The translations under genes and the position numbers were made by a program. Below the pieces are notes generated by a model that was not told the DNA's origin, made no database searches, and was given only the letters and a program-made list of their open reading frames with translations. 64,000 nt of DNA from Pyropia yezoensis (taxonomy: Eukaryota > Rhodophyta > Bangiophyceae > Bangiales > Bangiaceae): positions 8,882,545 through 8,946,544 of the forward strand of contig CM020620.1 of NCBI GenBank assembly GCA_009829735.1, written 5' to 3'. This document shows positions 2,463-35,146 of the stretch, one piece after another. Numbering within the stretch: position 1 is the stretch's first letter; every line of letters starts with the position of its first letter.

Positions 2463-4405
2463 TCGTTTCCCGCCGACTTGGCGTCCGAATCTGAGGGCGG
2501 GGAGGAAGACGACGAGTCCGAGGACGACGTGTCCGCCTCCTCCGCCGACGGTGTGGCGACCGCAACGACCGGTCGAGACCCACCCTCGCGGCGTGAACGT
2601 ACTTCGTTCGTAGCCGACTTCTTACTCGCATTCCTTACAAGTTGTTGGATGCGTTTACTCAACTTGGGGCAATCATATGCCCAGTGACCATCGGAGTTGC
2701 AGTTCCAACACCGATAGTCCGTTCCGGGAGGGGTCTTCCCAACTGGGGAAGACGAAGGGATACCCTGGGAGGTTCCCACGGCAGCTACCACCCTCTCCTT
2801 GCGGATTCGGCGTGCCTCTCTCAACTCTCTGGCCTGGCGCGCCTCCTCCCGTTCCTTGGCCAACTCGGCCTGACGCTCCTGGCGTTGTTCCTCCCGCAAC
2901 TTGCGGTAGGCCTCGCCTCTGCGATAGGCGAACCTGGCCAACTCGGCCAGGGTCGCCCGGGCAGTGTTATGCTCCCGGGTCTCCATCCGGACTGACCAAT
3001 GGAGTCCCTCCACAAACCGACTCTTCACCACAGCTTGTGGATGAAGAAACCCACAAAGATTGTTGAGCTTACGGACTCGCTCCGCAAAGGACAACTCGTC
3101 CTCCGCCTCTTCCTGATGGGCTTGCGTAAACTCCTTGACTTGAGAAGCCAACGCTGCCTCATCAACCATGGCTCTCAACAACCAGTTGACGAGCTCCAAG
3201 TAGGACGTCACCTCCCCAGCGCCTCCACTTGAGGAGCTGGGCATGACGGACATAAGTTCTGTCCGTAGGTCGCCCTTCGTAGACTCCTGTAGCATGTAAA
3301 AAGCCATGCCTTCACTTATGGCATTGTCGTCACAGGCTTTTGTGAAACGACGTAGGAACTCAAAGACACGGAGGGGGGGAGTTCCGTCCCACTCCGCTTT
3401 GTGCCCAAAAGAATGAAGTGCATTCTTCTTGGCACGGCCCATGGCTCGGGCCTGGTCAGGACCATACGCCACCGACTTGTTGTGGAGGGCGTAGGTCTCA
3501 CAGTCAAAGATCCTCTGGTAGACCGGGTTGGCTACCTGGATCTTGGGCGGCACCTGACGTTGAGGGAACAGCTGCTGTGGCACTGGGGTAAGTTCACTCT
3601 CAGTGCCTGTAGTCCGGCGCGGCGCGCTTGGTGCAGCCGCCGGCGTTTCCGGGGGGAACTCCCCCGTGAAGGGCGTACGCCCCACCGAGTATGGTGTGGC
3701 TCCCTCGTTGGGAGTCACAGGTGTCGCCCCCAGTTCGGGGCGGCCAGAGATAGGCGTAAGGGGGGATTCCCCCTGCGCCTGCGGGCTCGAAAGCCCCAAT
3801 CCGGTTTGGACATTAAGGCCATCTGGCAAACTCGCCACAATCTGATTCAGAATAGTATTCGTCATCGTGACCACCAGGTTCGGCAAAGTCTGCCGCAACA
3901 CATTGGTCGCCTCCCGATGGCCAGTCTCCGCGAGGAGTGGATTGACGACTCCAGTTGAGTCTCGGTCCGCCTCCGGGAGTCCACCTGAGGGGTAACCACG
4001 TTCCTCAGGGGTCTCAACCGGGGGCATGGGCGCGAGCCCATCGCCGACCAACGGAGGTCCACCGTCCTCCGAAAGCCTAGTTGGCGACGACTCCAAGCCA
4101 AAGTTGGCTCCAACCCGAGTGGAACCCGCGGGGACAGTCCTCACCCCTTGGGACGTTCCCGTTGAGTATACCACACGGTGGCCAGACTTCGGCCCACCCA
4201 CATCAGAAGTGTCACCCGAGTGAACTCCCGAGTGAGTCGGGGTGGCCTGTTGCCCGCCCGTACTTCCAGTCCTGCTGGCTTGAGGGACCTCTAGTCCCTC
4301 TGCGACCCCAGGTAAACCCACCTGTGTCTCACCAGTACTCAAAGGCACTGAAGTACGTGCGTCACCCGTGTACTCCCCGGACGACGGGGGGTCCGAGCTA
4401 GCCAT
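2459..4405 (-). CDS. gag: Gag polyprotein of element A
   Basis: The protein is about 648 aa starting at the ATG at 4405; the open frame extends eight codons further upstream without another ATG. The N-terminal 300 residues are Pro/Ser/Thr/Gly-rich and disordered-looking. A capsid-like helical stretch follows, then a basic, Arg/Glu-rich segment. A CCHC zinc knuckle (CWNCNSDGHWAYDC, CX2CX4HX4C) near the C-terminus would bind RNA for packaging. The stop TGA overlaps the pol ATG as ATGA. The heptamer GGGAAAC sits at 2465-2471 in phase for -1 frameshifting, two codons before the stop. Sequence similarity to gag of B is weak outside the general architecture. Confidence 0.88.
   Translation of the reverse strand: MASSDPPSSGEYTGDARTSVPLSTGETQVGLPGVAEGLEVPQASRTGSTGGQQATPTHSGVHSGDTSDVGGPKSGHRVVYSTGTSQGVRTVPAGSTRVGANFGLESSPTRLSEDGGPPLVGDGLAPMPPVETPEERGYPSGGLPEADRDSTGVVNPLLAETGHREATNVLRQTLPNLVVTMTNTILNQIVASLPDGLNVQTGLGLSSPQAQGESPLTPISGRPELGATPVTPNEGATPYSVGRTPFTGEFPPETPAAAPSAPRRTTGTESELTPVPQQLFPQRQVPPKIQVANPVYQRIFDCETYALHNKSVAYGPDQARAMGRAKKNALHSFGHKAEWDGTPPLRVFEFLRRFTKACDDNAISEGMAFYMLQESTKGDLRTELMSVMPSSSSGGAGEVTSYLELVNWLLRAMVDEAALASQVKEFTQAHQEEAEDELSFAERVRKLNNLCGFLHPQAVVKSRFVEGLHWSVRMETREHNTARATLAELARFAYRRGEAYRKLREEQRQERQAELAKEREEARQARELREARRIRKERVVAAVGTSQGIPSSSPVGKTPPGTDYRCWNCNSDGHWAYDCPKLSKRIQQLVRNASKKSATNEVRSRREGGSRPVVAVATPSAEEADTSSSDSSSSSPPSDSDAKSAGNE
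2465..2471 (-). promoter_or_regulatory. Candidate -1 frameshift slippery heptamer, element A
   Basis: Minus-strand G GGA AAC lies in the X XXY YYZ phase of the gag frame, with the gag stop two codons later and pol open in the -1 frame. The identical heptamer occupies the same place in element B (27077-27083). GGGAAAC is an established -1 slippery sequence at the gag-pro junction of some retroviruses. That frameshifting happens here is inference. Confidence 0.6.
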
Positions 4406-4503
4406 GTTGGCTGACGATCCGTATGACACGGTCCAAGACCACCGTTCCTCTGAGACAGAGGGCCCCCTACACCCGGGTGCACCCGGAGGTAAAGTTTACC
4501 TCT

Positions 4504-4522
4504 GTCCCCTGCTGCTCCACCA
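4504..4522 (-). promoter_or_regulatory. Primer-binding site of element A
   Basis: Minus-strand TGGTGGAGCAGCAGGGGAC lies 2 nt downstream of the LTR end. TGG at its start would pair with the CCA end of a tRNA. The same 19 bases occur at the same place in element B (24682-24700), although the LTRs differ. It does not match the initiator-Met pattern (TGGTATCAGAGC) common in plant elements. I cannot name the tRNA from sequence alone. Confidence 0.7.
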
Positions 4523-4524
4523 AA

Positions 4525-4995
4525 TGTGGCAAAAACCACTAGCACACACGGCACCCAAGTTGGGGCGGTGTGCTAGGGCTGCCTCCCGTGTCGGGGGAAC
4601 CGGAAGAAGTGCAAGTCGCACACACTCTGTCCCTGTTGTGGGGCAAACCCCCCACGGACAAAAAAGAGGATGGTGTGTGGTCCAACAGTTTCTTGGTCGG
4701 GACGGGGACGCAGGGCCAAGCCCCGCTGTCCCTCCCCTTATCCCCCCAGGGTCCACTCAGAATCTCGCCACTCGGAATCTCCCACCCCAGCACCTGCCCA
4801 CCGGGCCACACGAAAATTCAAGACGATAAATGCAGAAAACCCTCAAATCCAAGTTGGATTTACTACTAAGCTAACTATCCCAAACTTAGGGAATATGGAC
4901 CCAAATGCAGGGGGAGGAACGGATCAGGCTAGTGGCCTGCCGCCCCTTGCATGGCACGTGTTGCCCCCCCTACCTGGGGGGTCAATACTGCCACA
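4525..4995 (-). repeat. 5' LTR of element A (471 bp)
   Basis: On the minus strand it begins TGTGGCA and ends TGCCACA, a 7-bp perfect inverted terminal repeat with the usual TG...CA ends. Its right edge is exactly where similarity to the B-family pol begins (4996). Its left edge abuts the primer-binding site. The 3' LTR copy is outside the window. Confidence 0.85.
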
Positions 4996-6678
4996 CGATG
5001 GAGGCTAAAAATGGCCGAGCACGACTACCGTACCGTGTATAAGGCTGGGTCAACCCACCATCTCGGAGACGCATTGTCTCGACTCGACACCCCGAGCGGG
5101 GATACCCGCCCGGTGGACGAGGACATCCTGGTGGTACCGGTCTGCATGGTGGGTAACGCTACCCAAGGTATGGTTGACCATACCATGGCACACCGAGCAT
5201 GCCCACTGACCCTCGCGGACTTCGGCGAGGCACAAGCCAATGACGACGACTGTAGACGTCATCGCGCTAACCTCCTGGCCGGTACGGCCGGCATCTTCTC
5301 CGAGAACGAAGACGGACTCATATACCGGCGGGCACCCGCCGATGGACGACATCAAGTCGTGGTTCCCGTGTCCTTACGGCAAGCCGTCATGGAACGAGAA
5401 CACGAGAACCCCACAGCCGGACACCCGGGGGGTTCACGTATGTTCGCAGCAATGCGAAGGTTCTTCTACTGGCCAGCAATGGCCGTCGACGTGGTCGACC
5501 ACGTAAGGGGATGCCACCCCTGTGCGCGTAACCGCATGAGTCTACATAGGCAGGCGTCTGCCATGAAGCTATTCCCACCCGATGGGCCCAACGAGCAAGT
5601 CGCTATCGACATACTCGGGCCACTTCCGGTAACGGAAGAAGGGAACAGGTACATCCTGGTCATGTCTGACCGCTTCACTAAGCTGTCACGAGCGGCAGCC
5701 ATCCCGAATGATACGGCATACACCATCATGAACGCAGTGGTTGACCACTGGATCAGTGCATATGGAGTCATGAAGCAACTCCTCTCCGACAACGGAGCAA
5801 ACCTTACGTCAGCATTCTGCACTAAGGTCCAGGGCATGTTCGGCATCGAACCACGTCGGGCATCCGACTACCACCCGCAAACCAACGGGCAGGTGGAGCG
5901 GTTCAACCGCACCATCGTCAAGATGCTACAGTGCTACGTGGCCGAGCACACGAACACTTGGGACAGGCTTCTGTCCGTACTCACCCTGGCATACAATGCC
6001 AGGCCACATCGGAGCACAAACATCGCTCCGCTGGAGTGGGTCATGCCACTAGGCGTCGGTAACCTGAGGCTGCCACCAGGCAGGTGCACTCGGTATGATA
6101 CACCGAAAGGCCGACCGGCCGAACGTATCCACCTAGCTTGGTTGGCCAAGCTATCGTGGATGATTCCTAAGCTGAAGGGTGCCCTTGACAGAACACAACT
6201 TCGATATAAGAAGAACTCCGACGCCCGGTTACGGGTGCGCAACGCAACCCTGATGACAGGTGACTGGGTCTACATCAGACACCAGAAGTTCCGGGGGAAC
6301 AAGCTCATGCAACCGGTCAAGGGACCGTACCAGATCCTCCACAGAGATGACCACTCTGTTATCTTACACTCCGATACGGAGATCCAACGCATCAGTGTGA
6401 ATGATGTCACACCTGCTCCGAAGCCGGAACAGCCTCAGCCGGTACCGGCTGGGTTGCTACATGAAGCTCTTACAACCCACCGGTCGGATGACCCGGTGGG
6501 ACCGGATGGGATTCCATACCAAGTAGAGAGCGTGGTCGGACACACCGACCCGAACCTACCAGGACCCTGGTACGTGAAGGTTACGTGGGTCGGATACGAC
6601 TCACCCACCTGGGAACAGGCGGCGAATATACCCCGCCAACTCCTCATGCCTTACATGAGGCGACGACGCCTACTGTAA
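4996..6678 (+). CDS. pol: Pol C-terminal part of B' (RNase H end, integrase, chromodomain)
   Basis: About 560 residues match the C-terminal part of B pol almost residue for residue. Visible parts are the end of RNase H (HHLGDALSRL), the integrase zinc-binding HHCC module (HENPTAGHPGG ... CHPCARN) and the integrase core with DDE residues (AIDILGPL, LSDNGANL, VERFNR). After these come a GPY-type module (KGPYQIL) and a C-terminal chromodomain (YQVESVV ... YVKVTWVGYDSPTWEQAANI). The open frame extends 5' into the LTR of element A only by chance, so I start the feature at the insertion junction. Loss of the upstream half by the nested insertion makes this copy defective, although the frame is intact to the TAA at 6678. 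Confidence 0.9.
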   Translation, partial: RWRLKMAEHDYRTVYKAGSTHHLGDALSRLDTPSGDTRPVDEDILVVPVCMVGNATQGMVDHTMAHRACPLTLADFGEAQANDDDCRRHRANLLAGTAGIFSENEDGLIYRRAPADGRHQVVVPVSLRQAVMEREHENPTAGHPGGSRMFAAMRRFFYWPAMAVDVVDHVRGCHPCARNRMSLHRQASAMKLFPPDGPNEQVAIDILGPLPVTEEGNRYILVMSDRFTKLSRAAAIPNDTAYTIMNAVVDHWISAYGVMKQLLSDNGANLTSAFCTKVQGMFGIEPRRASDYHPQTNGQVERFNRTIVKMLQCYVAEHTNTWDRLLSVLTLAYNARPHRSTNIAPLEWVMPLGVGNLRLPPGRCTRYDTPKGRPAERIHLAWLAKLSWMIPKLKGALDRTQLRYKKNSDARLRVRNATLMTGDWVYIRHQKFRGNKLMQPVKGPYQILHRDDHSVILHSDTEIQRISVNDVTPAPKPEQPQPVPAGLLHEALTTHRSDDPVGPDGIPYQVESVVGHTDPNLPGPWYVKVTWVGYDSPTWEQAANIPRQLLMPYMRRRRLL

Positions 6679-7156: not shown

Positions 7157-9526
7157 TCAGTGGGTAGACCCACTGCCCGAGGGAGGCCACTCACGCGTAA
7201 GCGCGTATACCTCCGTGCTCCACCGGTCGGCAATCTCACGACGGTCAATCACCCGAGTTACCTCGGTGCATAGCTGGACGAGGGTGCTGCGGCCAGCCTC
7301 CACGTCCTCCAGAGCTTTCTGGAGGCGGTCCAGCACGCCACCGAAGCAACGCGCTGACCCAACTAGCGCAGCACCTGGGGGGATATCCCCCCAGCTAACA
7401 GAGAGACCCTCCCGCATTGCGCGGGCAACAAGGGCGTCAACGCCCTCATACCAGAGACGGGGACCCCCGTCTTGTATGACAGGGGCGGGAGCGGACACTG
7501 GCGCAGCCAGAGGAGCCAGAGGAGCCGACACGGCTACCACCGGAGCCGGTGGCACCTGATACGAGGCTCGGTAGGACCCTACCGAAGGGGCTCCACCGTA
7601 ACCCCGGCGGGGCTCCGCCCGACGACGGGACACATCACGCTCCCCACCCGCAGAGCCCCACTCTCGGGGCCGACGGCCAACTGCCGCCGGTATCGGGTTA
7701 CCGAACCACGGGGCAAGGACCTGAAGAGGGTCATGGATAACCATGGGAATACCCAGGTCAGGAACGGCCTCGGTGGACGCCCACCCATGGCAACTAGGCT
7801 CACCCGGCTGAGTACGCCGGATACGCAACGAGTGACGAGGCAAGGGGGTAGCCCCAGCCTGCGGGTCCCGGTACGGGGGAAGGGCCAACACCCCAACCCA
7901 GTTCACGGCATCGTGAACAGCCAGCAGGGCTTCGAACTCCCGGGCCAACCCGGTCTTGGCAGCTATCAGGTCCACGCCCAACTGCGCGATGTGCCGACGG
8001 ACACCCGTCGGAAGATGAAACAGGCGCCCCTGCCGGCGGACGGACAGCAAGAAGGAGGACGCCTGCCCGAGGGTAACCTCAAGGGTGAAGGTACCCTGCA
8101 ACGGGTGGACCGGCCGGGAGGCCAACACACTCCCGAAGTATCGGAGACAGGAGCCGGTGTCAAACCGGAAAGCAGGGGCGGGTTCCCTCCCCTCCTGCCA
8201 TAGCGGCGGGCGCACGGGAGTGTATACCGGCGCACGACCGTTGCCGGTCTGCAACGCACACGTTATATCCGTGCGAAACGCATCCGCCATGACACCATGG
8301 CTACGTCGCCAGTTTGACGCCGACTTCAACCCCGCCATAGGCGGGTAGGGAGCCGTCAACGACAGATACGGGGATACCCCCGGGTAGTAATCAAAGTCGG
8401 GATACCGACCGGTACTGCCCACCGTCTCCCCAAACGCAACCGGCTCCGCCGCCGCCGCAATCCCCCGAGCACTAGCCGGGTAGTCAATCTCCCGCGGCAA
8501 AGCGGGAGCAATCAGGTCGCATACCCCGAAGGCGGGGTCGAGGTAGACCTCACCCCGTCCCACCCGAGTACGCCAGAGCTGCGCATGCCGGTCGTCCGGC
8601 TGACTCAGGATCCAATGGTGTTCCACTCGCACCGCGTTCGGCTGGTTGACCAGCCGCACCAACTCCCGCTCCCAACTCGGGTCCACCTTGACGCGCCGGG
8701 AGGACTCTCCAAGGGGATGGGGCAGGTGGAAGTCCACCCGCATCCGCCCATCGGACTCCATTGACTCTTGCACAGTCAGGCCTCGAACCCGAGCCACCAA
8801 GTCGAACATCGACATGGCGGGTTGACCCGCCGCCACGGCGACGCCGCCACCCAACGGGGCAACCCGGGCAGGACCAGGAAGAATAGGGGGCGCCGGGGGA
8901 TGCCCCACCGGAAGAGGGGCCGGCGCCGGAGTCGCACGCGGCCGAGGAGGAACAAGAAGGACGGGCGCCCGCCCGGAGTAACTACCGGAGTCCACAGCCA
9001 TTGGTGTAGACCCACCTTGACCACCAGACGCCCGCGGCACCGCGGGCAGAGCATCGCCGCCACCCGGACCCGACGTGGGTACCACGGGGGCAGCACGGGT
9101 AGACCCGCTACCCGCCGCAGCGGACACACCAACCGGGCGGGCACCCGCGCCGTCTTGACCCGCCGGGCTGGCCGGGGTGCCGCCACCACCATTCGCCACG
9201 CCGGCGACACCGTCTTGAGGTAGAGCCACGCCGGAACCGGCGACAGAAGCCATCCGGGCCGCCGGAGGAGAAGCGGTAGAAGCCACCGCTGCACGCGGTT
9301 GTCCGCCACCCGACGGAGCCGTCGTGCCGCTACACACGGACGACAACCCGCCCGGCGCGCCGTCCGGGGCCACACGAACGGTCACCCGGTCGTCCTCGTC
9401 CTCCGACGAGCTCGCTAGGAAGCACTCGGCGGCGGTGGCGGAGACGGGAACGTCGTCCACCATCACCTCTTCCCCCTCTTCAGGCAGGAGGTCGTCCTCG
9501 CCGCCGGGTACCTGGGGGTCCGACAT
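7157..9526 (-). CDS. Antisense ORF protein of B' (789 aa, unknown family)
   Basis: This is a long open frame on the strand opposite pol, starting at an ATG (9526) shared with the B copy and ending 478 bp from the pol stop. Residues 1-60 are acidic with an SSSEDEDD cluster. Residues 60-220 are a Pro/Gly/Ala/Ser-rich, low-complexity, variable segment. From about 230 to the end the sequence is complex and looks globular (MSMFDLVARVRGLTVQESME ... LWYEGVDALVARAMREGL ... a C-terminal Leu-heptad-like LDRLQKALEDVEAG). I see no signal peptide, membrane segment, zinc finger or catalytic motif. Antisense extra ORFs between pol and the 3' LTR are known in some plant Ty3/gypsy lineages (e.g. Grande), but I see no recognisable similarity. 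The function is unknown. Confidence 0.8.
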   Translation of the reverse strand: MSDPQVPGGEDDLLPEEGEEVMVDDVPVSATAAECFLASSSEDEDDRVTVRVAPDGAPGGLSSVCSGTTAPSGGGQPRAAVASTASPPAARMASVAGSGVALPQDGVAGVANGGGGTPASPAGQDGAGARPVGVSAAAGSGSTRAAPVVPTSGPGGGDALPAVPRASGGQGGSTPMAVDSGSYSGRAPVLLVPPRPRATPAPAPLPVGHPPAPPILPGPARVAPLGGGVAVAAGQPAMSMFDLVARVRGLTVQESMESDGRMRVDFHLPHPLGESSRRVKVDPSWERELVRLVNQPNAVRVEHHWILSQPDDRHAQLWRTRVGRGEVYLDPAFGVCDLIAPALPREIDYPASARGIAAAAEPVAFGETVGSTGRYPDFDYYPGVSPYLSLTAPYPPMAGLKSASNWRRSHGVMADAFRTDITCALQTGNGRAPVYTPVRPPLWQEGREPAPAFRFDTGSCLRYFGSVLASRPVHPLQGTFTLEVTLGQASSFLLSVRRQGRLFHLPTGVRRHIAQLGVDLIAAKTGLAREFEALLAVHDAVNWVGVLALPPYRDPQAGATPLPRHSLRIRRTQPGEPSCHGWASTEAVPDLGIPMVIHDPLQVLAPWFGNPIPAAVGRRPREWGSAGGERDVSRRRAEPRRGYGGAPSVGSYRASYQVPPAPVVAVSAPLAPLAAPVSAPAPVIQDGGPRLWYEGVDALVARAMREGLSVSWGDIPPGAALVGSARCFGGVLDRLQKALEDVEAGRSTLVQLCTEVTRVIDRREIADRWSTEVYALTREWPPSGSGSTH

Positions 9527-10117: not shown

Positions 10118-10480
10118 TGTAGCAATATGGTTGGCCGTATTGTAACCCTAATATTAGGGGGGCTACTTCTAACCCTTAACTTCCAATTTGATAGTTCGTA
10201 CTGGTCACGGTATCTATAAGTTACGTATGACCAGAGGGACTTGCATCTTGGGGTGGAGGGTAGTTAGTAGTGTCTCCGAGGGTTTATAACGTGGGGGCCG
10301 GCGGCGAATCCACCGCCGGCCAAGGTAGAACAACAAACCCCTCCCATTTGGGCTCCCATCTTGGTCCCGTGGCTTGCGCTCCAAGGACAGCAACCTTGGC
10401 CTCCCGGTGACGTTGGTGCCGATCCCCCTTGGTGAGTGTTCCCTGAGAGTGGACGTGCGACGGATCCCTATTGTGCTACA
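10118..10480 (+). repeat. 3' LTR of B' (363 bp)
   Basis: It begins TGTAGC and ends GCTACA (TG...CA, 6-bp inverted ends) and is the same length as both LTRs of element B. A TATA-like TTTATAA lies at 10283. The five bases after it, CATAC, would be the target duplication; the partner lies outside the window. Confidence 0.92.
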
Positions 10481-24317: not shown

Positions 24318-24680
24318 TGTAGCAATATGGTTGTCCGTATTGTGGCCCTAATATTAGGGGGGCTACTTCTAATCCTTAACTTCCAATTTGAGAGTCCGAG
24401 CTGGTCACGGTATCTATAAGTTACGTATGACCAGAGGGACTTGCATCTTGGGGTGGAGGGTAGTTAGTAGTGTCTCCGAGGGTTTATAATGAGGGGGCCG
24501 GTGGCGAATCCACCGCCGGCCAAGGTAGAACAACAAACCCCTCCCATTTGGGCTCCCATCTTGGTCCCGTGGCTTGCGCTCCAAGGACAGCAACCTTGGC
24601 CTCCCGGTGACGTTGGTGCCGATCCCCCTTGGTGAGTGTTCCCTGAGAGTGGACGTGCGACGGATTCCTATTGTGCTACA
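24318..24680 (+). repeat. 5' LTR of element B (363 bp)
   Basis: It starts TGTAGC and ends GCTACA, with flanking CACCC on the left and the PBS 1 nt to the right. TTTATAA at 24483 is a candidate TATA box for the genomic transcript. Confidence 0.96.
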
Positions 24681-24700: not shown

Positions 24701-24905
24701 GGGTTTCCGTCACCCTTGTGGTGACGCCGTCTTCGGCCCTGGCACACGGATAGGGATCCGGTCCTTTTCTTGTACTCGTGGTGTTGCGACCTGATCGATT
24801 GTGTTGAGCTTTTACCTGTGACTGTGACCTACTGTTACTCTCCCCAATCTACCCCCTCGCTCTCTTATTCGTGGTGGTCGTTGCGTCGGTTGACTGATTG
24901 TGACT

Positions 24906-27089
24906 ATGTCTACCCAAGAGACGGGGAACGTTCAAGATGACGGATCGGCGTCGACGCCGACTCCGGAGGTGACTACGGGAACCGGGATCGGGAACCCGAT
25001 CGATAACATTGAGACGCCAACGCTTTCCGGTGCCGGATCGACGTTTGGCACGGCTCGGACGGCAGGAGGCGGGGGCCCGCCTCAACTGTCGTCGACCGAC
25101 CTCACTCCGCCGCCTCCTTCACCAGGGGATTCCCTGATGGCATCATTGGCCCGCATCGAGGCCCGGTTTTCCGGGCTCGACGCCCGTCAAGATCGGACGG
25201 AGGACGCAATGGCAGTGTTGATGTCAACACGGCACACGACGGGACCCCGTCGTGTTCCTCCCACACCGGTACGGTTCGAACCGGCCGGACTACTTTCGGA
25301 GTCCACCAGGGCCAATCCCGGGGTTGCTACTCCTGGACAACCCCCGGACACAATGGGGTATGGGTCCGACTCGTCGGCAGAGTTGGAACGGAGTCACACG
25401 GAGCGATACGCTCGGAGCACCCGAAGCGGACTCCGCGGACACGACCCGGCAGATACGTACGCCGGGGGAGAGTCGGTTATGGGGGGAGGGGGTACCCTCT
25501 CGCAGTACCCCCACGACGAAGGAGGCCCGGCAACTCGGGTTCCCGAGGTGCCGACGCCTGAAGTACCATCTTCAGTGGTGGAAGCTATGACCGCGCAGGT
25601 AACTGTGAGCCTACTGAAGCGGATGGAGTCCGATGAGTTCGCTCATCAACTGGCTAAGCGACTGGATATCCAGGACGCTGACACGGAGATCGTCAACGAG
25701 GTCTTCCGGTCGGTTCTTACTCCGGAACGTTATCGTTTGGAGGACCGCTCTACCACCGTATCGGAATCGATGCGTAATACGTCGCATCGGGCGATCCGCT
25801 CTATGCAGACCCTTATGAAGGGAGTCCCTATGTTCGGGGGGCCGAACGGACGCCCGTTGGCAGTCATCGGCTTCTTGACCAGCTTCAAGGCAGCCGCAGA
25901 CAAGGCGCTCGTTAACGAGGGGCTGGCCCTGGAGATCCTCCCGTTCTTTGTTGATGAACGGGTGCGAGGCATTCTTCGCCAGGCATCCCCGATGCCGGGA
26001 ATGAGGGTCGCGGCCACCCCCATGGATTACCGTGGGATATTGAAGGAGCTGCTGAGCAGCTACCTCAGTGAGGACAAGTGCGAGGACCACTATCGGGCCC
26101 TTCGCACTGCCACCGCCCAGTCCTGGGAGGATGAGGAGATGTTTGGACGCCGGATCCAAGAGCTCGACTACGAGCTGGGGAAGCTCCTCGGAGAAGGGGA
26201 GCTACGGGCCATCCTGTTCGCAGGAGTACCCAACTACGTGCGGATATCCGCACGGGGCGCCAACACGGCACGGACGAACTTCAGTCGACTGATGCATATG
26301 TGCAAGTCCCTAGGGGACGCCTACCGGGTTCTACACCCGGAGTGTGCCTTGGCCCCGAAGCCCAAGGGTGAGGGAGGCAAGCCCAGTCTTACCCCGGTAC
26401 CGAGGCAAGAGAAGGTGGAACGTAAGGCCGCACCAGTACTGGTGGCGACCGAACATACCCCTATTGGTGAGGGTGACCCTCTAGTCGACCAACAGGGCCA
26501 CCTGTTGCTACCGGCGACGCCGGTGATTGATGAACATGGTACGGTAGCGTACATCGCCCCGGCTGGAACCCAGTTCCAGGTCAACGAAGGAACGGGACGG
26601 CGCGTCCCGTATGTGCGGACTACGGGGTACTCCCCGGTGACGGGTAACCCTCACCAACCCTTGCCAACATGGGCGGTGCGCACGGAGGCACCTCCGCAGA
26701 TTGCGGGCCGACCCAACCGGTTGGGGGAGTCCATGTTCCGGTTGACCCAAGGACCCAAGGCCTACCAGGGAGCAGGCACTCGGGCGCCCGAGGGAGGCAA
26801 CCGTAGCTACGGGGCTACCCCGATGCGACCTCAAGGGGGGACCGGCACGTCCGGATGTATGTTGTGTGGGGATCCCCAGCACTGGGTGTCTTCCTGCCCA
26901 CTCATCCCCGAGGAGTCTCGGCGGGCAGCGGCGCAACGCAAGGCATCCACCGGGGGGTATCCCCCCCGAGCACCCGGACCCGCACCGGGTAGGCAGCCAG
27001 CTCCAGGTGGAGTACTGGCCGTCGAGGGGGCACCTCCTCAGCCGGATGTCCCGGCGGACAGCACCCTACCAAGGGCGGGAAACGAGTAA
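24906..27089 (+). CDS. gag: Gag polyprotein of element B
   Basis: The protein is about 727 aa from the ATG at 24906, about 200 bp downstream of the PBS. Residues 1-230 are Ser/Thr/Pro/Gly-rich. A capsid-like helical region runs from roughly 230 to 470 and includes PMFGGPNGRPLAVIGFLTSFKA. A CCHC zinc knuckle (CMLCGDPQHWVSSC) starts at residue 651 and should bind RNA. The protein ends RAGNE, as gag A ends SAGNE, because the frameshift heptamer GGGAAAC (27077-27083) encodes these residues. The role is assembly of the virus-like particle in the cytoplasm. Confidence 0.92.
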   Translation: MSTQETGNVQDDGSASTPTPEVTTGTGIGNPIDNIETPTLSGAGSTFGTARTAGGGGPPQLSSTDLTPPPPSPGDSLMASLARIEARFSGLDARQDRTEDAMAVLMSTRHTTGPRRVPPTPVRFEPAGLLSESTRANPGVATPGQPPDTMGYGSDSSAELERSHTERYARSTRSGLRGHDPADTYAGGESVMGGGGTLSQYPHDEGGPATRVPEVPTPEVPSSVVEAMTAQVTVSLLKRMESDEFAHQLAKRLDIQDADTEIVNEVFRSVLTPERYRLEDRSTTVSESMRNTSHRAIRSMQTLMKGVPMFGGPNGRPLAVIGFLTSFKAAADKALVNEGLALEILPFFVDERVRGILRQASPMPGMRVAATPMDYRGILKELLSSYLSEDKCEDHYRALRTATAQSWEDEEMFGRRIQELDYELGKLLGEGELRAILFAGVPNYVRISARGANTARTNFSRLMHMCKSLGDAYRVLHPECALAPKPKGEGGKPSLTPVPRQEKVERKAAPVLVATEHTPIGEGDPLVDQQGHLLLPATPVIDEHGTVAYIAPAGTQFQVNEGTGRRVPYVRTTGYSPVTGNPHQPLPTWAVRTEAPPQIAGRPNRLGESMFRLTQGPKAYQGAGTRAPEGGNRSYGATPMRPQGGTGTSGCMLCGDPQHWVSSCPLIPEESRRAAAQRKASTGGYPPRAPGPAPGRQPAPGGVLAVEGAPPQPDVPADSTLPRAGNE
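27077..27083 (+). promoter_or_regulatory. Candidate -1 frameshift slippery heptamer, element B
   Basis: G GGA AAC is in X XXY YYZ phase with gag, two codons before the gag TAA (27087-27089). pol is in the -1 frame and is open back to the heptamer, so a single slip would produce Gag-Pol. The pol ATG at 27098 is an alternative (reinitiation). The heptamer is conserved with element A. Confidence 0.65.
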
Positions 27090-27097
27090 GAGGAAGG

Positions 27098-30000
27098 ATG
27101 ACCGGGGGGCGCTGGGGTCACCCAAGCAAGCCACCCCGGAGTACCGCGGGGAAAGCCCCACGGAGAGCGCGGTTGAGCCGACGCCGCATCAACCCCCGGG
27201 TACACCTTCCGGCCCCGACGACACGGCGTCAGGGGATTGATGACCAACCTCCGAGGTTGGGAGGAGAGGACGGGAAGCCCCTTCACGTTGAACCAGACAA
27301 GGGCCCTGTTCAGGATGCCCGAGCTACACCGGATATCGGTGTAGGACATGTGTTGTTTACCTTGGAGAACTTCAAGGTATCAGCCACACTGGGGGTTGAC
27401 CCCCAGTCGACACGATCGTACTACCCTGTACTGGACACAGGGGCTGGACCCAACCTTATCCGGAAGGATACCCTCCCGGACAAGTGGCTTCCACGAGTCA
27501 GAGTGACTCGGGGACCCACCATCAAGGACGCGAATGGTCGACTCATTCGTACGACCGCAGCGATGTCGCTGCAGGTTACCATCGGGGATCTCACCACGGA
27601 AGTTGACTTCCTGGTATGTGAAACGCTATCGGTGCCCTGCATACTGGGGTGCACCTTCATCAACGTTCACGTTGATGCAATCCGGCCAGGCCGGAGGACC
27701 GTCGAGCTTCAAGAAGCCGACGGGACGAAGCGAGGACACACGGCTATCGTCAGGGACCTGACGCTACAAGGAAGCCACGTTAACGTGGCTGAGGTGTACG
27801 CAAGCGTCGAGCCGAAGACACTTCGGTTGGCCAAGCGAACTCGCTTTGAGCCGTTGTCAGAGACAGTCCTCCCGGTTAACTGCGACCTCGCAGGCATCTG
27901 CAGAGTCCAGTCCAACCTACGGACGTACAAGCGCCATGGGTTGACCATGGCCTACGGTCTCATAGACCTCCCAGCAGGAGGGTCGTCCCTCCTAGTGATG
28001 GCGAACTACCGCCGTAAGGCAGTCACCCTCCCGAAGGGAACTATCCTCGGGATTGCCGAACTCTACGAAGGAGATATCCTTACCCCTGATAAGGAAGGTC
28101 AAGTGGAACCACTTGAAGTACTGGCGGTCGCCGAGACCACCGAGCGACAGCAACCCGATGACGGGAAGCCTAACCCATCGGCGGCTCCGGCGGACCTGCC
28201 GCCAAAGGACCAAGAGGCCTTGAAGGCACTGGCCGAGGCTGACCTCGACCACCTTCCCCCTTCGGTAGCCGAAGGGGTACGACGGATGCTAAGAAAGCAT
28301 GACGTTATGTGGACAGGCGGGGCCTTGGGGACCATTGGGGCAACCCAACATCGTATAGACCTGGTACCAGGCGCACGACCCGCCCGCTCACAACCGCACC
28401 GAGCGGGACCTATGCAACGAGAGATCGTTGATGGAGAAGTGAAGAGGATGAGTGAAGCTAAGGTGATCCGACCTTCGATGTCGGAATGGGGTGCCCCAGT
28501 CGTTATTGTGCCGAAGAAGGATCAAACCCCTCGGTTTTGCATCGATTATCGACGCCTCAACTTGGTTACCAAGAAGGACTCATACCCTTTACCAAGGATG
28601 GATGAATGCATCGACTCCCTGGGGGAGGCTACGGTGTTTACCACCATCGACTGCAATGCCGGATACTGGCAGATCCCGGTGGCGGACGAGGATATCCCCA
28701 AGACGGCATTCGTCTGTCACAGTGGAGTGTACGAGTTCCTAAGGATGCCCTTCGGATTGTCCAACGCCCCCGCTACATTCCAGCGGGCTATCGACATCAT
28801 ACTGTCTGGGGTGAAGTGGCGTAACTGCCTAGTGTACCTCGATGACGTCATCGTCTTCTCGCGTAACATGGATGACCATGTACAACATGTTGACGAGGTA
28901 CTCACCCTCTTGAGGAACGCCGGGGTAACCCTGCGTCTGAAGAAGTGCGCCTTCTTCCAACAGACGGTCGAATATCTGGGCCACCAGATAACCCCTGGTA
29001 AACTAGGGGTACTCGAAGCCAATACCCGGGCACTCCGGGATGCCCGGTTCCCTAACACCCAGACGCAGCTCAAGAGCTTCCTGGGAATGTGCAATGTATA
29101 CCGACGGTTCGTCAAGGACTTCGCTCGGATAGCTAAACCGTTAACGGTTCTTACGAGCAGTACCTTACCCAAGGTACTCCAACCCCCTTCGCCTAGCGAA
29201 GAGGAGGCATTCGAGTCGCTGAAGCGAGCCCTACTAGCCCCACCCGTCCTTGCGTTACCGCATAGACGGGGTACCTTCGTCATCGATGTCGATGCATGTG
29301 ATACACAAGTGGGATGCACCCTGTTACAGGGAGAGACGTTGATCGGTACCGATAACGTTATCCCGGACCTACGTCCGGTAGGGTACTTCAGCCGGACACT
29401 CAACCCGGCTGAGCGGAACTATAGTGCCACCGAGCGTGAATGCCTCGGAGTTATATGGGCAGTGCAACTGCTCCGTCCATACCTGGAGGGCTCCAGGTTC
29501 ATCGTGAGGTCCGACCACGAACCCCTACGATGGCTCCTCAACCTTGGTGACAAGGATTCCGATAGCCATGGGAGGCTAGCCCGATGGAGGCTGAAGATGG
29601 CCGAGCACGACTACCGCACGGTGTATAAGGCTGGGTCAACCCACCACCTCGGAGACGCGTTGTCTCGACTCGACACCCCGAGCGGGGATACCCGCCCGGT
29701 GGACGAGGACATCCCGGTAGTACCGGTGTGCATGGTGGGTAATGCTACCCAGGGTATGGCTGACCATACCATGGCACACCTTGCGTGCCCATTTACCCTC
29801 GCGGACTTCCGCGAGGCACAGGCCAACGACGATGACTGTAGACGTCATCGTGCTAACCTCCTGGCCGGTACGGCCGGCATCTTCTCCGAGAACGAAGACG
29901 GACTCATATACCGGCGGGCACCCGCCGATGGACGACATCAAGTCGTGGTTCCCGTGTCCTTACGGCAAGCCGTCATGAAACGAGAACATGAGAACCCTAC

Positions 30001-31264
30001 AGCCGGACACCCGGGGGGTTCACGTATGTTCGCAGCAATGCGAAGGTTCTTCTACTGGCCAGCAATGGCTGTCGACGTGGTCGACCACGTACGGGGATGC
30101 CACCCCTGTGCACGTAACCGCATGAGTCTACATAGGCGGGCGTCTGCCATGAAGCTATTCCCACCTGATGGGCCCAACGAGCAAGTCGCTATCGACATAC
30201 TCGGGCCACTTCCGATAACGGAAGAAGGGAACAGGTACATCCTGGTCATGTCTGACCGCTTCACTAAGCTGTCAAGAGCGGCAGCCATCCCGAATGATAC
30301 GGCATACACGATCATGAACGCAGTGGTTGACCACTGGATCAGTGCATACGGAGTCATGAAGCAACTCCTCTCCGATAACGGAGCAAACCTTACATCGGCA
30401 TTCTGCACTAAGGTCCTGGGCATGTTCGGTATCGAACCACGTCGGGCATCCGACTACCACCCGCAGTCCAACGGGCAGGTGGAGCGGTTCAACCGCACCA
30501 TCGTAAAGATGCTACAGTGCTACGTGGCCGAGCACACGAACACTTGGGACAGGCTTCTGTCCGTACTCACCCTGGCATACAATGCCAGGCCACATCGGAG
30601 CACAAACATTGCTCCGCTGGAGTGGGTCATGCCACTAGGCGTCGGTAACCTGACGCTGCCACCCGGCAGGTGCACTCGGTATGATACACCGAAGGGCCGA
30701 CACGCCGAACGCATCCACCTAGCTTGGTTGGCCAAGCTATCGTGGATGATTCCTAAGCTCAAGGGTGCCCTTGACAGAACACAACTTCGGTATAAGAAGA
30801 ACTTCGACGCCCGACTACGGGTGCGCAACGCAACCCTGGTAACAGGTGACTGGGTCTATATCAGACACCAGAAGTTCCGAGGGAACAAGCTTATGCAACC
30901 GGTCAAGGGACCGTACCAGATCCTCCACAGAGATGACCACTCTGTTATCTTACACTCCGATACGGAGATCCAACGCATCAGTATGAATGATGTCACACCT
31001 GCTCCGAAGCCGGAACAGCCTCAGCCGGTACCGGCTGGGTTGCTACATGAAGCTCTTACAACCCACCGGTCGGATGACCCGGTGGGACCGGATGGGATTC
31101 CATACCAAGTAGAGAGCGTGGTCGGACACACCGACCCGGACATACCAGGACCCTGGTACGTCAAGGTTATGTGGGTCGGATACGACTCACCCACCTGGGA
31201 ACAGGCGGCGAATATACCCCGCCAACTCCTCATGCCGTACATGAGGCGACGACGCCTACTGTAA
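27098..31264 (+). CDS. pol: Pol polyprotein of element B (PR-RT-RNaseH-IN-chromodomain)
   Basis: The protein is 1388 aa and uninterrupted. Aspartic protease DTGAG is at residues 113-117. Reverse transcriptase has FCIDYRRLN and catalytic YLDD at 580-583. RNase H follows, with VIDVDACDTQ, the TERECLGV block and DHEPLRWLL. The integrase zinc module has His 964 and His 971 plus CHPC. The integrase DDE residues lie in AIDILGPL, LSDNGANL and VERFNR, followed by a KGPYQIL module. A chromodomain lies at about 1336-1383 (YQVESVV ... YVKVMWVGYDSPTWEQAANI). In chromoviruses this domain directs integration to particular chromatin. It replicates and integrates the element; PR would process the polyprotein. 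All catalytic residues I looked for are present. Pol is probably made by -1 frameshifting from gag. Confidence 0.96.
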   Translation: MTGGRWGHPSKPPRSTAGKAPRRARLSRRRINPRVHLPAPTTRRQGIDDQPPRLGGEDGKPLHVEPDKGPVQDARATPDIGVGHVLFTLENFKVSATLGVDPQSTRSYYPVLDTGAGPNLIRKDTLPDKWLPRVRVTRGPTIKDANGRLIRTTAAMSLQVTIGDLTTEVDFLVCETLSVPCILGCTFINVHVDAIRPGRRTVELQEADGTKRGHTAIVRDLTLQGSHVNVAEVYASVEPKTLRLAKRTRFEPLSETVLPVNCDLAGICRVQSNLRTYKRHGLTMAYGLIDLPAGGSSLLVMANYRRKAVTLPKGTILGIAELYEGDILTPDKEGQVEPLEVLAVAETTERQQPDDGKPNPSAAPADLPPKDQEALKALAEADLDHLPPSVAEGVRRMLRKHDVMWTGGALGTIGATQHRIDLVPGARPARSQPHRAGPMQREIVDGEVKRMSEAKVIRPSMSEWGAPVVIVPKKDQTPRFCIDYRRLNLVTKKDSYPLPRMDECIDSLGEATVFTTIDCNAGYWQIPVADEDIPKTAFVCHSGVYEFLRMPFGLSNAPATFQRAIDIILSGVKWRNCLVYLDDVIVFSRNMDDHVQHVDEVLTLLRNAGVTLRLKKCAFFQQTVEYLGHQITPGKLGVLEANTRALRDARFPNTQTQLKSFLGMCNVYRRFVKDFARIAKPLTVLTSSTLPKVLQPPSPSEEEAFESLKRALLAPPVLALPHRRGTFVIDVDACDTQVGCTLLQGETLIGTDNVIPDLRPVGYFSRTLNPAERNYSATERECLGVIWAVQLLRPYLEGSRFIVRSDHEPLRWLLNLGDKDSDSHGRLARWRLKMAEHDYRTVYKAGSTHHLGDALSRLDTPSGDTRPVDEDIPVVPVCMVGNATQGMADHTMAHLACPFTLADFREAQANDDDCRRHRANLLAGTAGIFSENEDGLIYRRAPADGRHQVVVPVSLRQAVMKREHENPTAGHPGGSRMFAAMRRFFYWPAMAVDVVDHVRGCHPCARNRMSLHRRASAMKLFPPDGPNEQVAIDILGPLPITEEGNRYILVMSDRFTKLSRAAAIPNDTAYTIMNAVVDHWISAYGVMKQLLSDNGANLTSAFCTKVLGMFGIEPRRASDYHPQSNGQVERFNRTIVKMLQCYVAEHTNTWDRLLSVLTLAYNARPHRSTNIAPLEWVMPLGVGNLTLPPGRCTRYDTPKGRHAERIHLAWLAKLSWMIPKLKGALDRTQLRYKKNFDARLRVRNATLVTGDWVYIRHQKFRGNKLMQPVKGPYQILHRDDHSVILHSDTEIQRISMNDVTPAPKPEQPQPVPAGLLHEALTTHRSDDPVGPDGIPYQVESVVGHTDPDIPGPWYVKVMWVGYDSPTWEQAANIPRQLLMPYMRRRRLL

Positions 31265-31744
31265 CAACCCAACCGACACCGACTTCGGCTGTTGGGGGGT
31301 GAGGCTTATACCTACTAAGTAGGGTGTGACATGGTTACGGCAGACTTAGGTTTCTAAGTCAAATCAGACTTAGGTTTCTAAGTCGAACCAAGCTTAGGTA
31401 ACTAAGTAGAGCTAAGCTTAGGTAACTAAGTAAAAACCTGAACCTTAATAAGTTAACTTAAAGGTAAAGGCTAACTCCGATAATATCGAAGTAACTAGGG
31501 AGCTTACACGGGAGGATGACCTCCCCAAGCCAAGACACAAAGTGAGGGAGGATAACCTCCCCAAGCATGAACCAACCGGAAGAAGTTGGGCGGGAGGCAA
31601 GGCACCACTGAGCCAGAAGGGGTACTCCCCAGGGCAGCAAACAGAGGCAAGCAATGCCCCCAGCGGGGGATGAGTTTATACTCACTACTACCCGGCCACC
31701 ATAAGGGTTGCCGGGGCCCTCTCCCTCACTAACAATAGCGCTCC
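31265..31744. other. Pol-antisense ORF intergenic region of element B
   Basis: This noncoding spacer lies between convergent ORFs and closely matches 6679-7156 in B'. It contains the 24-bp palindrome array and two GGGAGGAT(G/A)ACCTCCC palindromes. A short AT-rich stretch (TTAATAAGTTAACTTAAAGG) follows the array and could serve 3'-end formation. Confidence 0.75.
31343..31430. repeat. Array of four 24-bp-spaced palindromes (B)
   Basis: CTTAG-N4-CTAAG units start at 31345, 31369, 31393 and 31417, an exact 24-bp spacing. The first two extend to GACTTAGGTTTCTAAGTC. Copy number and phase are identical to B' although the bases between units have diverged, so the palindromes appear constrained. Confidence 0.88.
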
Positions 31745-34192
31745 TCAGTGGGTAGACCCACTGCCCGAGGGAGGCCACTCACGCGTAAGCGCGTATACCT
31801 CCGTGCTCCACCGGTCGGCAATGTCACGACGGTCGACCACCCGAGTTACCTCGGTGCATAGCTGGACGAGGGTGCTGCGGCCAGCCTCCACGTCCTCCAG
31901 AGCTTTCTGGAGGCGGTCCAGCACGCCACCAAAGCAACGCGCTGACCCAACCAGCGCAGCACCTGGGGGGATATCCCCCCAGCTAACAGAGAGACCCCCA
32001 CGCATTGCGCGGGTAACAAGGGCGTCAACGCCTTCATACCAGAGACGGGGACCCCCGTCATGTAGGACGGGGGCGGGAGGTGACACTGGCGCAGCCAGAG
32101 GAGCCACAGGAGCCGACACGGCTACCACCGGAGCCGGTGGCACCTGATACGAGGCCCGGTAGGACCCTACCGAAGGGGCTCCACCGTAACCACGGCGGTA
32201 CTCCGCCCGACGACGGGACACCTCACGCTCCCCACCCACAGAGCCCCACTCTCGGGGACGACGGCCAACCGCCGCCGGCATCGGGTTACCGAACCACGGA
32301 GCAAGGACCTGAAGAGGGTCATGGATAACCATGGGAATACCCAGGTCAGGAACGGCCTCGGTGGACGCCCACCCATGGCAACTAGGCTCACCCGGCTGAG
32401 TACGCCGGACACGCAACGAGTGACGAGGCAAGGGGGAAGCCCCAGCCTGCGGGTCCCGGTACGGGGGAAGGGCCAACACCCCAGCCCAGTTCACGGCATC
32501 GTGAACAGCCAGCAGGGCTTCGAACTCCCGGGCCAACCCGGTCTTGGCATCTATCAGATCCACGCCCAACTGCGCGATGTGCCGACGGACACCCGTCGGA
32601 AGATGAAACAGACGACCCTGCCGGCGGACGGACAGCAAGAAGGATGAAGCCTGCCCGAGGGTAACCTCAAGGGTGAAGGTACCCTGCAACGGGTGGACCG
32701 GTCGCGAGGCCAACACACTCCCGAAGTAGCGAAGACAGGAGCCGGTGTCAAACCGGAAAGCAGGGGCGGGTTCCCACCCCTCCTGCCATAGCGGCGGGCG
32801 CACGGGAGTGTATACCGGAGCACGACCGTTGCCGGTCTGCAACGCACACGTTATATCCGTGCGGAACGCATCCGCCATGACACCATGGTTACGTCGCCAA
32901 CTCGACGCCGACTTCAACCCCGCCATGGGCGGGTAGGGAGCCGTCAACGACAGATACGGGGGTACCCCCGGGTAGTAGTCAAAGTCGGGATACCGACCGG
33001 TACGGCTCACCGTCTCCCCAAACGCAACCGGCTCCGCCGCCGCCGCAATCCCCCGAGCACTAGCCGGGTAGTCAATCTCCCGCGGCAACGCGGGGGCAAT
33101 CAAGTCGCAGACCCCGAAGTTGGGGTCGAGGTAGACCTCACCCCGTCCCACCCGGGTGCGCCAGAGCTGCGCATGCCGGTCGTCCGGCTGACTCAGGATC
33201 CAATGGTGTTCCACCCGGACCGCGTTCGGCTGGTTGACCAGCCGCACCAACTCCCGCTCCCAGCACGGGTCCACCTTGACGCGCCGGGAGGATTCTCCAC
33301 GGGGATGCACCAGGTGGAAGTCCACCCGCATACGCCCATCGGACTCCATCGACTCTTGCACCGTGAGGCCCCGAACCCGAGCCACCAAGTCGGACACCGA
33401 CATGGCGGGTTGACCCGCCGCCACGGCGACGCCGCCACCCAACGGGGCAACCCGGGCAGGACCAGGAAGAATCGGGGGCGCCGGGGGACGCACCACCGGC
33501 AGAGGGGCCGACGTCGGAGATGGACGAGGCCGAGGAGGAAGAAGAAGGGCGGGCGCCCGCCCGGAGTAACTCCCGGTGTCAACCGCCATGGGAGAAGGAG
33601 CGTCTTGACCGCTCGACGCCCGCGGCACCGCAGGTACGGCACCGGCGCCGGCACCACCCGTCGGCGTAGCCCCCGCCTCGGAAGGGGAAGGCACTTGGAC
33701 AGCCTCCGGAGCCGGAGCCCCGGCCGTGCGGACACCCGCACCGTCTTGACCCGCCGCACCGGGTGTCGCACCGCCACCACCACCCGCGTCAACGTCGGGA
33801 CCGCCTCGAGGAGTCACCGCCCGGACACCCGGACCACCTTGACCAGCCGGAGTCGGCTGCGGGTCGCGACCTCCGCCGCAGGGCGGACCATCTTGAGGTA
33901 CCTGCGGTGAGCCGGCACCGGCACCAGGCCCCATCCGGGCAGCCGGCAGAGAGGGGGTAGAAGCCGCCACGCGCGGTTGACCGCCGGGTTGACCTCCGGC
34001 CGACGGCACCGTCGTGCCGCTGCACACGGACGACAGTCCTCCGGCCGACAGACGGACGTACACCGCAGGCCCGTCGTCGTCAGACGAGCTCACCCCGTAA
34101 CGCGCGGCGTCGGGACCGACAGGCGCGTCGTCCTCCATCTCCTCCCCGATCAGGAGGTCTTCCTCCTCTTCAAGCACCTGGGGATAGGACAT
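31745..34192 (-). CDS. Antisense ORF protein of element B (about 815 aa, unknown family)
   Basis: The frame is open from 34474, but I take the ATG at 34192 because its product aligns with the start of the B' protein (MSYPQV against MSDPQV). The N-terminus is acidic, with a GVSSSDDD cluster, and is followed by a long Pro/Gly/Ala/Thr-rich segment that differs from B' by several indels. From about residue 255 to the end (about 560 aa) the two copies differ at only about 30 residues, with no gaps or frame breaks. There is no signal peptide, membrane helix or known motif. The opposite strand in this interval has no comparable frame. It is not Env-like in orientation or features. A regulatory or nucleic-acid-binding role is speculation. 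Confidence 0.82.
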   Translation of the reverse strand: MSYPQVLEEEEDLLIGEEMEDDAPVGPDAARYGVSSSDDDGPAVYVRLSAGGLSSVCSGTTVPSAGGQPGGQPRVAASTPSLPAARMGPGAGAGSPQVPQDGPPCGGGRDPQPTPAGQGGPGVRAVTPRGGPDVDAGGGGGATPGAAGQDGAGVRTAGAPAPEAVQVPSPSEAGATPTGGAGAGAVPAVPRASSGQDAPSPMAVDTGSYSGRAPALLLPPRPRPSPTSAPLPVVRPPAPPILPGPARVAPLGGGVAVAAGQPAMSVSDLVARVRGLTVQESMESDGRMRVDFHLVHPRGESSRRVKVDPCWERELVRLVNQPNAVRVEHHWILSQPDDRHAQLWRTRVGRGEVYLDPNFGVCDLIAPALPREIDYPASARGIAAAAEPVAFGETVSRTGRYPDFDYYPGVPPYLSLTAPYPPMAGLKSASSWRRNHGVMADAFRTDITCALQTGNGRAPVYTPVRPPLWQEGWEPAPAFRFDTGSCLRYFGSVLASRPVHPLQGTFTLEVTLGQASSFLLSVRRQGRLFHLPTGVRRHIAQLGVDLIDAKTGLAREFEALLAVHDAVNWAGVLALPPYRDPQAGASPLPRHSLRVRRTQPGEPSCHGWASTEAVPDLGIPMVIHDPLQVLAPWFGNPMPAAVGRRPREWGSVGGEREVSRRRAEYRRGYGGAPSVGSYRASYQVPPAPVVAVSAPVAPLAAPVSPPAPVLHDGGPRLWYEGVDALVTRAMRGGLSVSWGDIPPGAALVGSARCFGGVLDRLQKALEDVEAGRSTLVQLCTEVTRVVDRRDIADRWSTEVYALTREWPPSGSGSTH

Positions 34193-34778
34193 GATAACGG
34201 GTGCGGAGTCCCCCGCGCCCACAAGCCGTCGACGGCTACAACCCGGTACGGTGGGATAACCGGGACGAGCCAGGGAAGCGCGGACACCCGCGCTTATGAC
34301 CACAAACGGCCACGAGAAGCGCCGCAGGCGCGCGGGTCGACCCGCGCCCCACGGGGCTACGACCGCGCTCCACCCAGGCACCTGGGCGGGACGGGGCCAC
34401 ACCCACACACGGGGTAAGTAAGGGGGGTCACCCCCAACCGCCCCCACGCAACGCGGGCAGCCCCCGCCCCCCACTCAATCGTCCACACGAGAGGGGCCCC
34501 CCTACCACCAGGCACCTGGTGGCGGATCCGCTTGCACCACCCCTCGGAAAGGGGGGGCGCGAACAGCAACCCGCATCGGGAATTTAACGGTCCGGAAAAC
34601 GGATCGTGTGTGTGTACCACGCAAAGGGGGGCACCCCCCTCGGCGACCTCGAAAAGGGGTGTCTGTCGCGACGGGGCGCAAAGCCCCACCCGACGGGTAA
34701 ACAGTCACGCGACCCACTTACATTCGGTAACCCGAATGCAACTCGACCCGAGGACGGGCCGAATCTAAGGGGGGGATA
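34193..34778. other. Hairpin-rich 3' region of element B with polypurine tract
   Basis: It includes perfect hairpins CCACCAGG-C-ACCTGGTGG-type near 34505-34523 and GGGGGG-CA-CCCCCC at 34626-34639, as in B'. The polypurine tract TAAGGGGGGGATA lies directly before the LTR start at 34779. It probably contains the promoter/leader of the antisense gene; no TATA box is evident. Confidence 0.7.
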
Positions 34779-35141
34779 TGTAGCAATATGGTTGTCCGTA
34801 TTGTGACCCTAATATTAGGGGGGCTACTTCTAATCCTTAACTTCCAATTTGAGAGTCCGAGCTGGTCACGGTATCTATAAGTTACGTATGACCAGAGGGA
34901 CTTGCATCTTGGGGTGGAGGGTAGTTAGTAGTGTCTCCGAGGGTTTATAATGAGGGGGCCGGTGGTGAATCCACCGCCGGCCAAGGTAGAACAACAAACC
35001 CCTCCCATTTGGGCTCCCATCTTGGTCCCGTGGCTTGCGCTCCAAGGACAGCAACCTTGGCCTCCCGGTGACGTTGGTGCCGATCCCCCTTGGTGAGTGT
35101 TCCCTGAGAGTGGACGTGCGACGGATTCCTATTGTGCTACA
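34779..35141 (+). repeat. 3' LTR of element B (363 bp)
   Basis: TGTAGC...GCTACA, followed by the target duplication CACCC at 35142. By eye it differs from the 5' LTR at two sites, about 27 and about 199 nt from the LTR start. Confidence 0.96.
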
Positions 35142-35146
35142 CACCC

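Follow-up and report, generated by a model that had tools for sequence, protein, structure and literature searches.

Why does a Ty3 long terminal repeat (LTR) retrotransposon of the red alga Pyropia yezoensis carry a long open reading frame (ORF) on the strand opposite to its pol gene, and what might that frame encode? The question is posed by a 64,000-nucleotide stretch of contig CM020620.1 (assembly GCA_009829735.1, positions 8,882,545 to 8,946,544; hereafter the window), in which two copies of one element family carry such antisense frames, 31745..34192 (minus strand) in copy 2 and 7157..9526 (minus strand) in copy 1. Judging from the DNA, the antisense frame is almost certainly a real protein-coding gene under selection. 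Taken as a whole, our best explanation, to which we would give about an even chance, is that it is an accessory gene of Bangiales Ty3 elements encoding a nuclear regulator.

As the first-pass annotation of this DNA had reported, both frames lie between pol and the 3' LTR and are long, with 815 codons in copy 2 (start 34192, stop 31745) and 789 codons in copy 1 (start 9526, stop 7157). The same annotation saw no comparable frame on the plus strand, and indeed the longest overlapping plus-strand frames encode just 372 aa in copy 2 (32792-33910) and 278 aa in copy 1 (7367-8203). The longest stop-free run in 31265-34779 amounts to 909 codons, compared with a median of 229, a 95th percentile of 353 and a maximum of 611 in 1000 dinucleotide shuffles. 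The C-terminal peptide is identical in both window frames, and a core of 1710 bases (570 codons) aligns between them without a gap. Within this core the two copies differ at 74 bases, 46 of them third positions, and the ratio of nonsynonymous to synonymous substitution rates (dN/dS) is 0.251. The third-position excess, together with a dN/dS of about 0.25, indicates that selection works on codons. The antisense frame is also the sole stop-free frame of the six in the core, the other five having 6 to 19 stops; plus-strand frame 1 gives a ratio of 0.314 but contains 15-16 stops, and a low value is to be expected of a frame that shares its third positions with the antisense frame.

The comparison was extended to five copies, in which the core dN/dS was 0.22-0.28 in nine of the ten pairs, with dS up to 1.4, and 0.36 in the tenth and closest pair, which has 18 differences only. 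For pol, the corresponding ratios were 0.08-0.18 (one internal stop in the pol of locus L043 was skipped in the count), so that the antisense core evolves faster than pol (about 0.25 vs about 0.11). A dN/dS near 1, sought as a sign against a functional gene, was found neither in the core (0.22-0.36) nor in the whole antisense frame (0.385, copy 1 vs copy 2), the N-terminal part (0.448) or groups of genomic copies (0.28-0.40). A host gene elsewhere in the window, at 54083-56944 (minus strand), encodes proteasome subunit RPN1 (Pfam 4.9e-77). With this one gene as the reference, codon usage correlated at 0.88 and 0.86 for the two antisense frames, 0.73 for pol, and 0.60 and 0.79 for two other readings of the same DNA.

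We examined further copies in the 107,475,971-base assembly (11 contigs). From 31,507 first-look candidates, a search with the protein P0002 led to 55 scored copies, which are all near full length; a search with the Pyropia vietnamensis protein P0007 scored 67. Frequent stops, the other sign against the gene that was looked for, turned up in a minority of copies: 44 of the 55 had none and 11 had some, while 45 of the 67 were stop-free and 22 were not; 10 of the 14 stop-bearing rows from the P0007 search that could be typed belong to one core type, C3 (see below). Searches with P0014, P0015 and P0013 scored 126, 126 and 130 overlapping loci, most rows of which have open frames of at least 800 codons (90/126 in the first listing). 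Because the lists share loci and are ordered by best match to the antisense ORF, they are neither totals nor unbiased samples. At 41 of 44 loci the frame adjoins the end of pol, which runs on the opposite strand, and no locus (0/44) shows another arrangement; the remaining three, L014-L016, had no match to the pol-end probe. Uncorrected nonsynonymous/synonymous ratios of the core were 0.40, 0.28 and 0.40 within three groups (10, 21 and 10 rows), and comparisons between the groups gave 0.26, 0.36 and 0.37; group A includes window copy 1 twice (w1 and L001), the C3 rows align with gaps, and L014 alone was entered for the identical tandem copies L014, L015 and L016. At G000:C2:9880067-9892399, four copies of the antisense gene (L014, L015, L016 and L030) stand in tandem with a 3489-base spacing.

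A second source of evidence lies inside copy 1. Copy 1 is not the simple copy first described: its pol is interrupted at about 4996 by a nested Ty3 element of another lineage, which extends past the left end of the window. The right part of this nested element (1..4995, minus strand) comprises gag (~2462-4495), pol from 2621 leftwards and an LTR (~4525-4995); its LTRs are 99.6% identical over 472 bases, and both flanks read CGATG, a target duplication. Against copy 2, the nested element shows 38-45% identity in pol and 25% in part of gag. The nested element also has an antisense frame, of 724 aa, located beyond the window's left edge (about -3808 to -1637; L044:2192-4366, plus strand), between its own pol and its own 3' LTR and on the strand opposite to that pol. 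BLASTP aligned the nested and first antisense proteins at 25% identity over 189 residues (E 3e-9; 1.4e-5 with low-complexity filtering), and hhalign of the nested protein against a 13-sequence profile gave P 6.4e-6 and a probability of 84.9. Core scores of the nested protein were 32.7 bits against P0002 (maximum 23.9 in 300 shuffles) and 28.9 bits against P0007 (shuffle maximum 24.6). Both antisense families have a motif in common, RRQGRLFHLP in one and QRRGMLWHLP in the other, which is not strict in all members. Since a second, distant lineage has a homologous antisense gene, the gene goes back further than a single family. Most simply, it was probably present before the two element lineages split; alternatively, it may have passed between lineages via recombination.

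The predicted protein of copy 2 consists of an acidic start, a stretch rich in proline, glycine, alanine and serine, a conserved core and a C-terminal part. The first 50 residues carry a net charge of -12 and -15 in the two window proteins, and a stretch of roughly 200 residues is 58-70% proline, glycine, alanine and serine and probably forms a disordered linker. The core contains a motif of the approximate form R-x-G-x-L-F/W-H-L-P, with G replaced by V in P0017 and H by S in P0015, and the nested antisense protein ends in an arginine-rich tail. Protein searches covered about 5.8 billion proteins, with the best 8000 candidates scored each time and thus limited sensitivity. The first listed 5 relatives, with P. 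vietnamensis at 45-49% identity over 31-74% of the query; a profile search had 10 relatives among the matches listed, and across both searches identity was 43-52% over part of the query. Among the matches listed, every named relative is a P. vietnamensis hypothetical protein and the remainder are unnamed; one of them, P. vietnamensis P0009, has an acidic start resembling that of the window proteins.

The first annotator recognized no known family in the protein, and the searches bear this out. Pfam at E 1 gave no family (only DUF6214 at E 0.1 for P0001, nothing for P0002), nor did a further Pfam scan, and PHROGs yielded no usable family. Two matches (E 0.1 and 0.25) and five matches (E 0.021-0.23) to PDB sequences involve unrelated molecules and were judged to be chance. 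No usable relative was found in plasmids by tblastn, and among viral contigs one stretch matched a pattern and none encoded a relative. The protein thus appears to represent a family absent from the libraries searched.

The element that houses the gene has the make-up of a Ty3/gypsy retrotransposon. Copy 2 is bounded by LTRs of 363 bases at 24318..24680 and 34779..35141 (plus strand; 99.4% identical by self-BLAST), the ends of which read TGTAGCA...TGCTACA, and the target-site duplication CACCC flanks it on both sides (24313-24317 and, directly after the 3' LTR, 35142-35146). Its gag (24906..27089, plus strand, in an open frame of 24894-27089) has a weak zinc-knuckle match near the end (Pfam zf-CCHC_2, E 0.072). 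Its pol (26993..31264, plus strand) shows the Ty3/gypsy order of protease, reverse transcriptase, RNase H and integrase, followed by a chromodomain-like end; Pfam matches are RVT_1 3.4e-36, RT_RNaseH 3e-29, Integrase_H2C2 7e-17 and rve 1.1e-8, with the protease (gag-asp_proteas 2.7e-5, 25.1 bits) below its 28.2-bit cut-off. The chromodomain that had been assigned to this element is weak: Chromo matched two pol end pieces (E 0.04 and 0.0064; 14.3 and 16.8 bits) below the cut-off of 25.1, and the whole pol of copy 2 gave no match at E 1. On these sequence features, we regard the host element as a chromovirus-like Ty3 LTR retrotransposon with a weak chromodomain match. In copy 1, the 3' part of pol downstream of the insertion (4996..6678, plus strand) is 96.7-96.8% identical to P0004 from residue 864 on, and the 3' LTR (10118..10480, plus strand) is 96.7% identical to 24318-24680 by self-BLAST.

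The antisense frame of copy 2 is housed in the 3.5-kb stretch from pol to the 3' LTR. The spacer between pol and the gene (31265-31745) contains short repeats built on ACTTAG...CTAAGT. On the other side, the region upstream of the gene up to the 3' LTR (34193..34778, minus strand) is a candidate for the antisense transcription start, and its identity between copy 1 and copy 2 is 75-87% by the gene and 93-97% by the LTR. The promoter words TTATA and GGGCGG are unweighted matches and were given no weight.

Further comparison of the copies shows that parts of the gene are exchanged between elements. Copy 2 and L043 are 90-100% identical in pol and 85-94% in the N-terminal half of the antisense gene, whereas between 31700 and about 33500 identity falls to 67-79%, apart from one 150-base window at 87%. 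Correspondingly, copy 2 and L043 have a dS of 0.785 for the core but 0.157 for pol, whereas the values for copies 1 and 2 are 0.104 and 0.124. A high mutation rate as the cause of the core divergence was rejected on these same values. The exchanged core module, seen in sliding identity and dS, spans 31700..33500 (minus strand). An exchanged N-terminal module, seen in sliding identity and probe typing, lies at 33632..34231 (minus strand); there, copies 1 and 2 are 25-69% identical in the N-terminal part, compared with 93-99% in the core. Probe typing of 46 loci yielded N-terminal type a with core 1, b with core 1, b with core 3, and a separate type D; L048 is close to none of the probes, and L049 and L050 duplicate the positions of L040 and L039. 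In the a/core 1, b/core 1 and b/core 3 loci the pol end, where found, is 90-99% identical to that of copy 2. N-terminal and core modules are thus swapped between elements with similar pol. From this exchange we suggest that the core may determine a specificity, which recombination renews. Two type-D elements, L041 (G000:C2:9531500-9541400) and L040, stand head to head, with a 2.4 kb pol inverted repeat of 99.6% identity.

Grande, RIRE2, Retand, PvRetro13 and Boty have been reported to carry antisense ORFs between pol and the 3' LTR, the functions being given as unknown (PMC7264820). The red-algal gene resembles the plant aORF-3R class (Grande GENE23, rice RIRE2, Retand and bean PvRetro13) in place and strand and in having no clear database relatives. 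Members of that class are kept in most copies of their element; the stop-free frames in 44 of 55 and 45 of 67 scored red-algal copies, which were best matches to the ORF, may be comparable. For Grande, RIRE2 and PvRetro13 this likeness is one of position and description, and Boty of Botrytis cinerea and Sclerotinia, with an antisense ORF between pol and the 3' LTR outside plants (PMC7264820), is likened by description only. In maize Grande, GENE23 is transcribed from its own promoter and the protein is nuclear (PMC7264820). Retand of Silene belongs to a non-chromovirus lineage and its antisense ORFs mostly encode TRP28 (PMC11963269), whereas the red-algal pol ends in a chromodomain-like piece and the host is a red alga. 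TRP28 (PF04195) was found neither in the antisense proteins at E 1 nor genome-wide at E 10, the latter a search in which the control genomes were also blank above the cut-off. In human T-cell leukaemia virus type 1 (HTLV-1), the antisense gene HBZ is served from the 3' LTR, and its product, which carries an activation domain at the N-terminus, reduces expression from the sense strand (PMC10186651). The acidic red-algal N-terminus may be an analogue, with no sequence likeness claimed: the basic leucine zipper (bZIP) family of HBZ is not among the Pfam matches of the antisense proteins at E 1, nor is any other Pfam domain assigned. A 2012 survey reported no retrotransposon chromodomains in the Porphyra yezoensis data then available (PMC3350952), and no paper on an antisense gene in red-algal retrotransposons was among the matches listed in open-access titles and abstract openings. 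Antisense accessory ORFs are an already known kind; what appears to be new here is the protein family, the chromovirus-like backbone in a red-algal host, and the sharing of the antisense gene by two distant lineages.

How might the protein act? Given the acidic start, the linker and the arginine tail of the nested protein, together with the precedents of Grande GENE23 and HBZ, our leading guess is a nuclear protein that regulates the element, in line with the regulator suggested in the first-pass annotation; we hold it at slightly short of an even chance. In such a scheme, an antisense transcript would start in or beside the 3' LTR and yield a protein in which a long linker joins the acidic N-terminus to the conserved core. 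Once in the nucleus, this protein would target the transcription or chromatin of its own element, a role also proposed for Grande GENE23 and one that HBZ plays on the HTLV-1 provirus. A bolder version is that this ancestral third gene is a self-recognition regulator, by which lineages control their own copies via the core type and escape through module swaps. It comes from the way in which Na/Nb and C1/C3 are combined in elements with similar pol, which suggests such swaps, and we consider it unlikely, if worth stating.

Several observations weigh against the account given so far. The N-terminal part is far less constrained, at the dN/dS of 0.448 between copy 1 and copy 2, and the genomic copies were drawn from the tops of score lists, which favours intact ones. 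Stops occur in all 10 typed C3 loci of the P0007 search and, in L043, which has core type 3, the N-terminal part is in a different frame from the core; the combination of b with core 3 may therefore be decaying. For the link between the two lineages, the hhalign probability is just 84.9, and among nine first-family members compared with P0016, P0015 has no meaningful match (E 2.7) and P0011 and P0014 reach just E 0.002-0.003. Moreover, the antisense gene of the nested family is represented by a single genomic copy and by the database protein P0017 (96%). Because Pfam, PHROG and PDB give no family, no DNA-binding domain is shown, and the AlphaFold model is unusable (predicted local distance difference test 33, predicted template modelling score 0.21) and too poor for a fold search.

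Other functions can be weighed against a nuclear regulator. The protein may be needed in trans for retrotransposition, as a factor for nuclear entry or the pre-integration complex or as a particle component, with no role in transcription. Purifying selection and retention in many intact copies would fit, and bringing the pre-integration complex into the nucleus has been discussed as one role of such ORFs (PMC7264820), but nothing here ties the protein to Gag or integrase, the core evolves faster than pol, and, as an argument rather than data, an antisense unit is awkward for a stoichiometric particle component; we regard this reading as unlikely, yet as the strongest of the rivals. An anti-silencing factor that counters host silencing of the element is rather improbable. 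Evolution faster than that of pol and the exchange of modules fit an arms race with the host, and the family is abundant by the overlapping counts of scored loci above, but the libraries searched contain no known factor like it and selection on the core is on average purifying, not positive.

The possibility raised in the first-pass annotation of a captured host gene, taken up once by one element and of little role for it, fares poorly. The frame comes nearer than pol to the codon usage of one host gene, but the adjoining, oppositely oriented pol at 41 of 44 loci, the homologous gene in a second lineage with a pol only 38-45% identical, and the lack of any named host-gene relative among the matches listed (the named ones all being P. 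vietnamensis hypothetical proteins) make it quite improbable. It is very improbable that the function lies in the antisense RNA, which might for instance supply double-stranded RNA directed against the element, with the frame as a by-product. Such RNA has been named as a possible regulator beside the protein (PMC7264820), but selection is seen at the codon level, with 46 of 74 differences at third positions and a dN/dS near 0.25 out to a dS of 1.4, and a by-product would hardly stay 45-49% identical across species. The usual hydropathy threshold for membrane spans is 1.6, and an envelope-like or cell-to-cell movement protein, as the env position between pol and the 3' LTR might suggest, is highly improbable for a frame that is antisense and has no membrane-like stretch (19-residue maxima: window frames, 1.37 and 1.53; P0007, 1.39; P0016, 1.23).

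Homologous antisense genes in two distant element lineages of a red alga would extend the antisense class beyond the elements of flowering plants and the fungal Boty named in PMC7264820, with a protein family divergent enough to search for function. The swapped modules predict type-specific control. Nearly half of the P. yezoensis genome consists of repeats, in which LTR elements predominate (PMC7423979), and because of this a regulator of one large LTR family could influence how these seaweed genomes grow.

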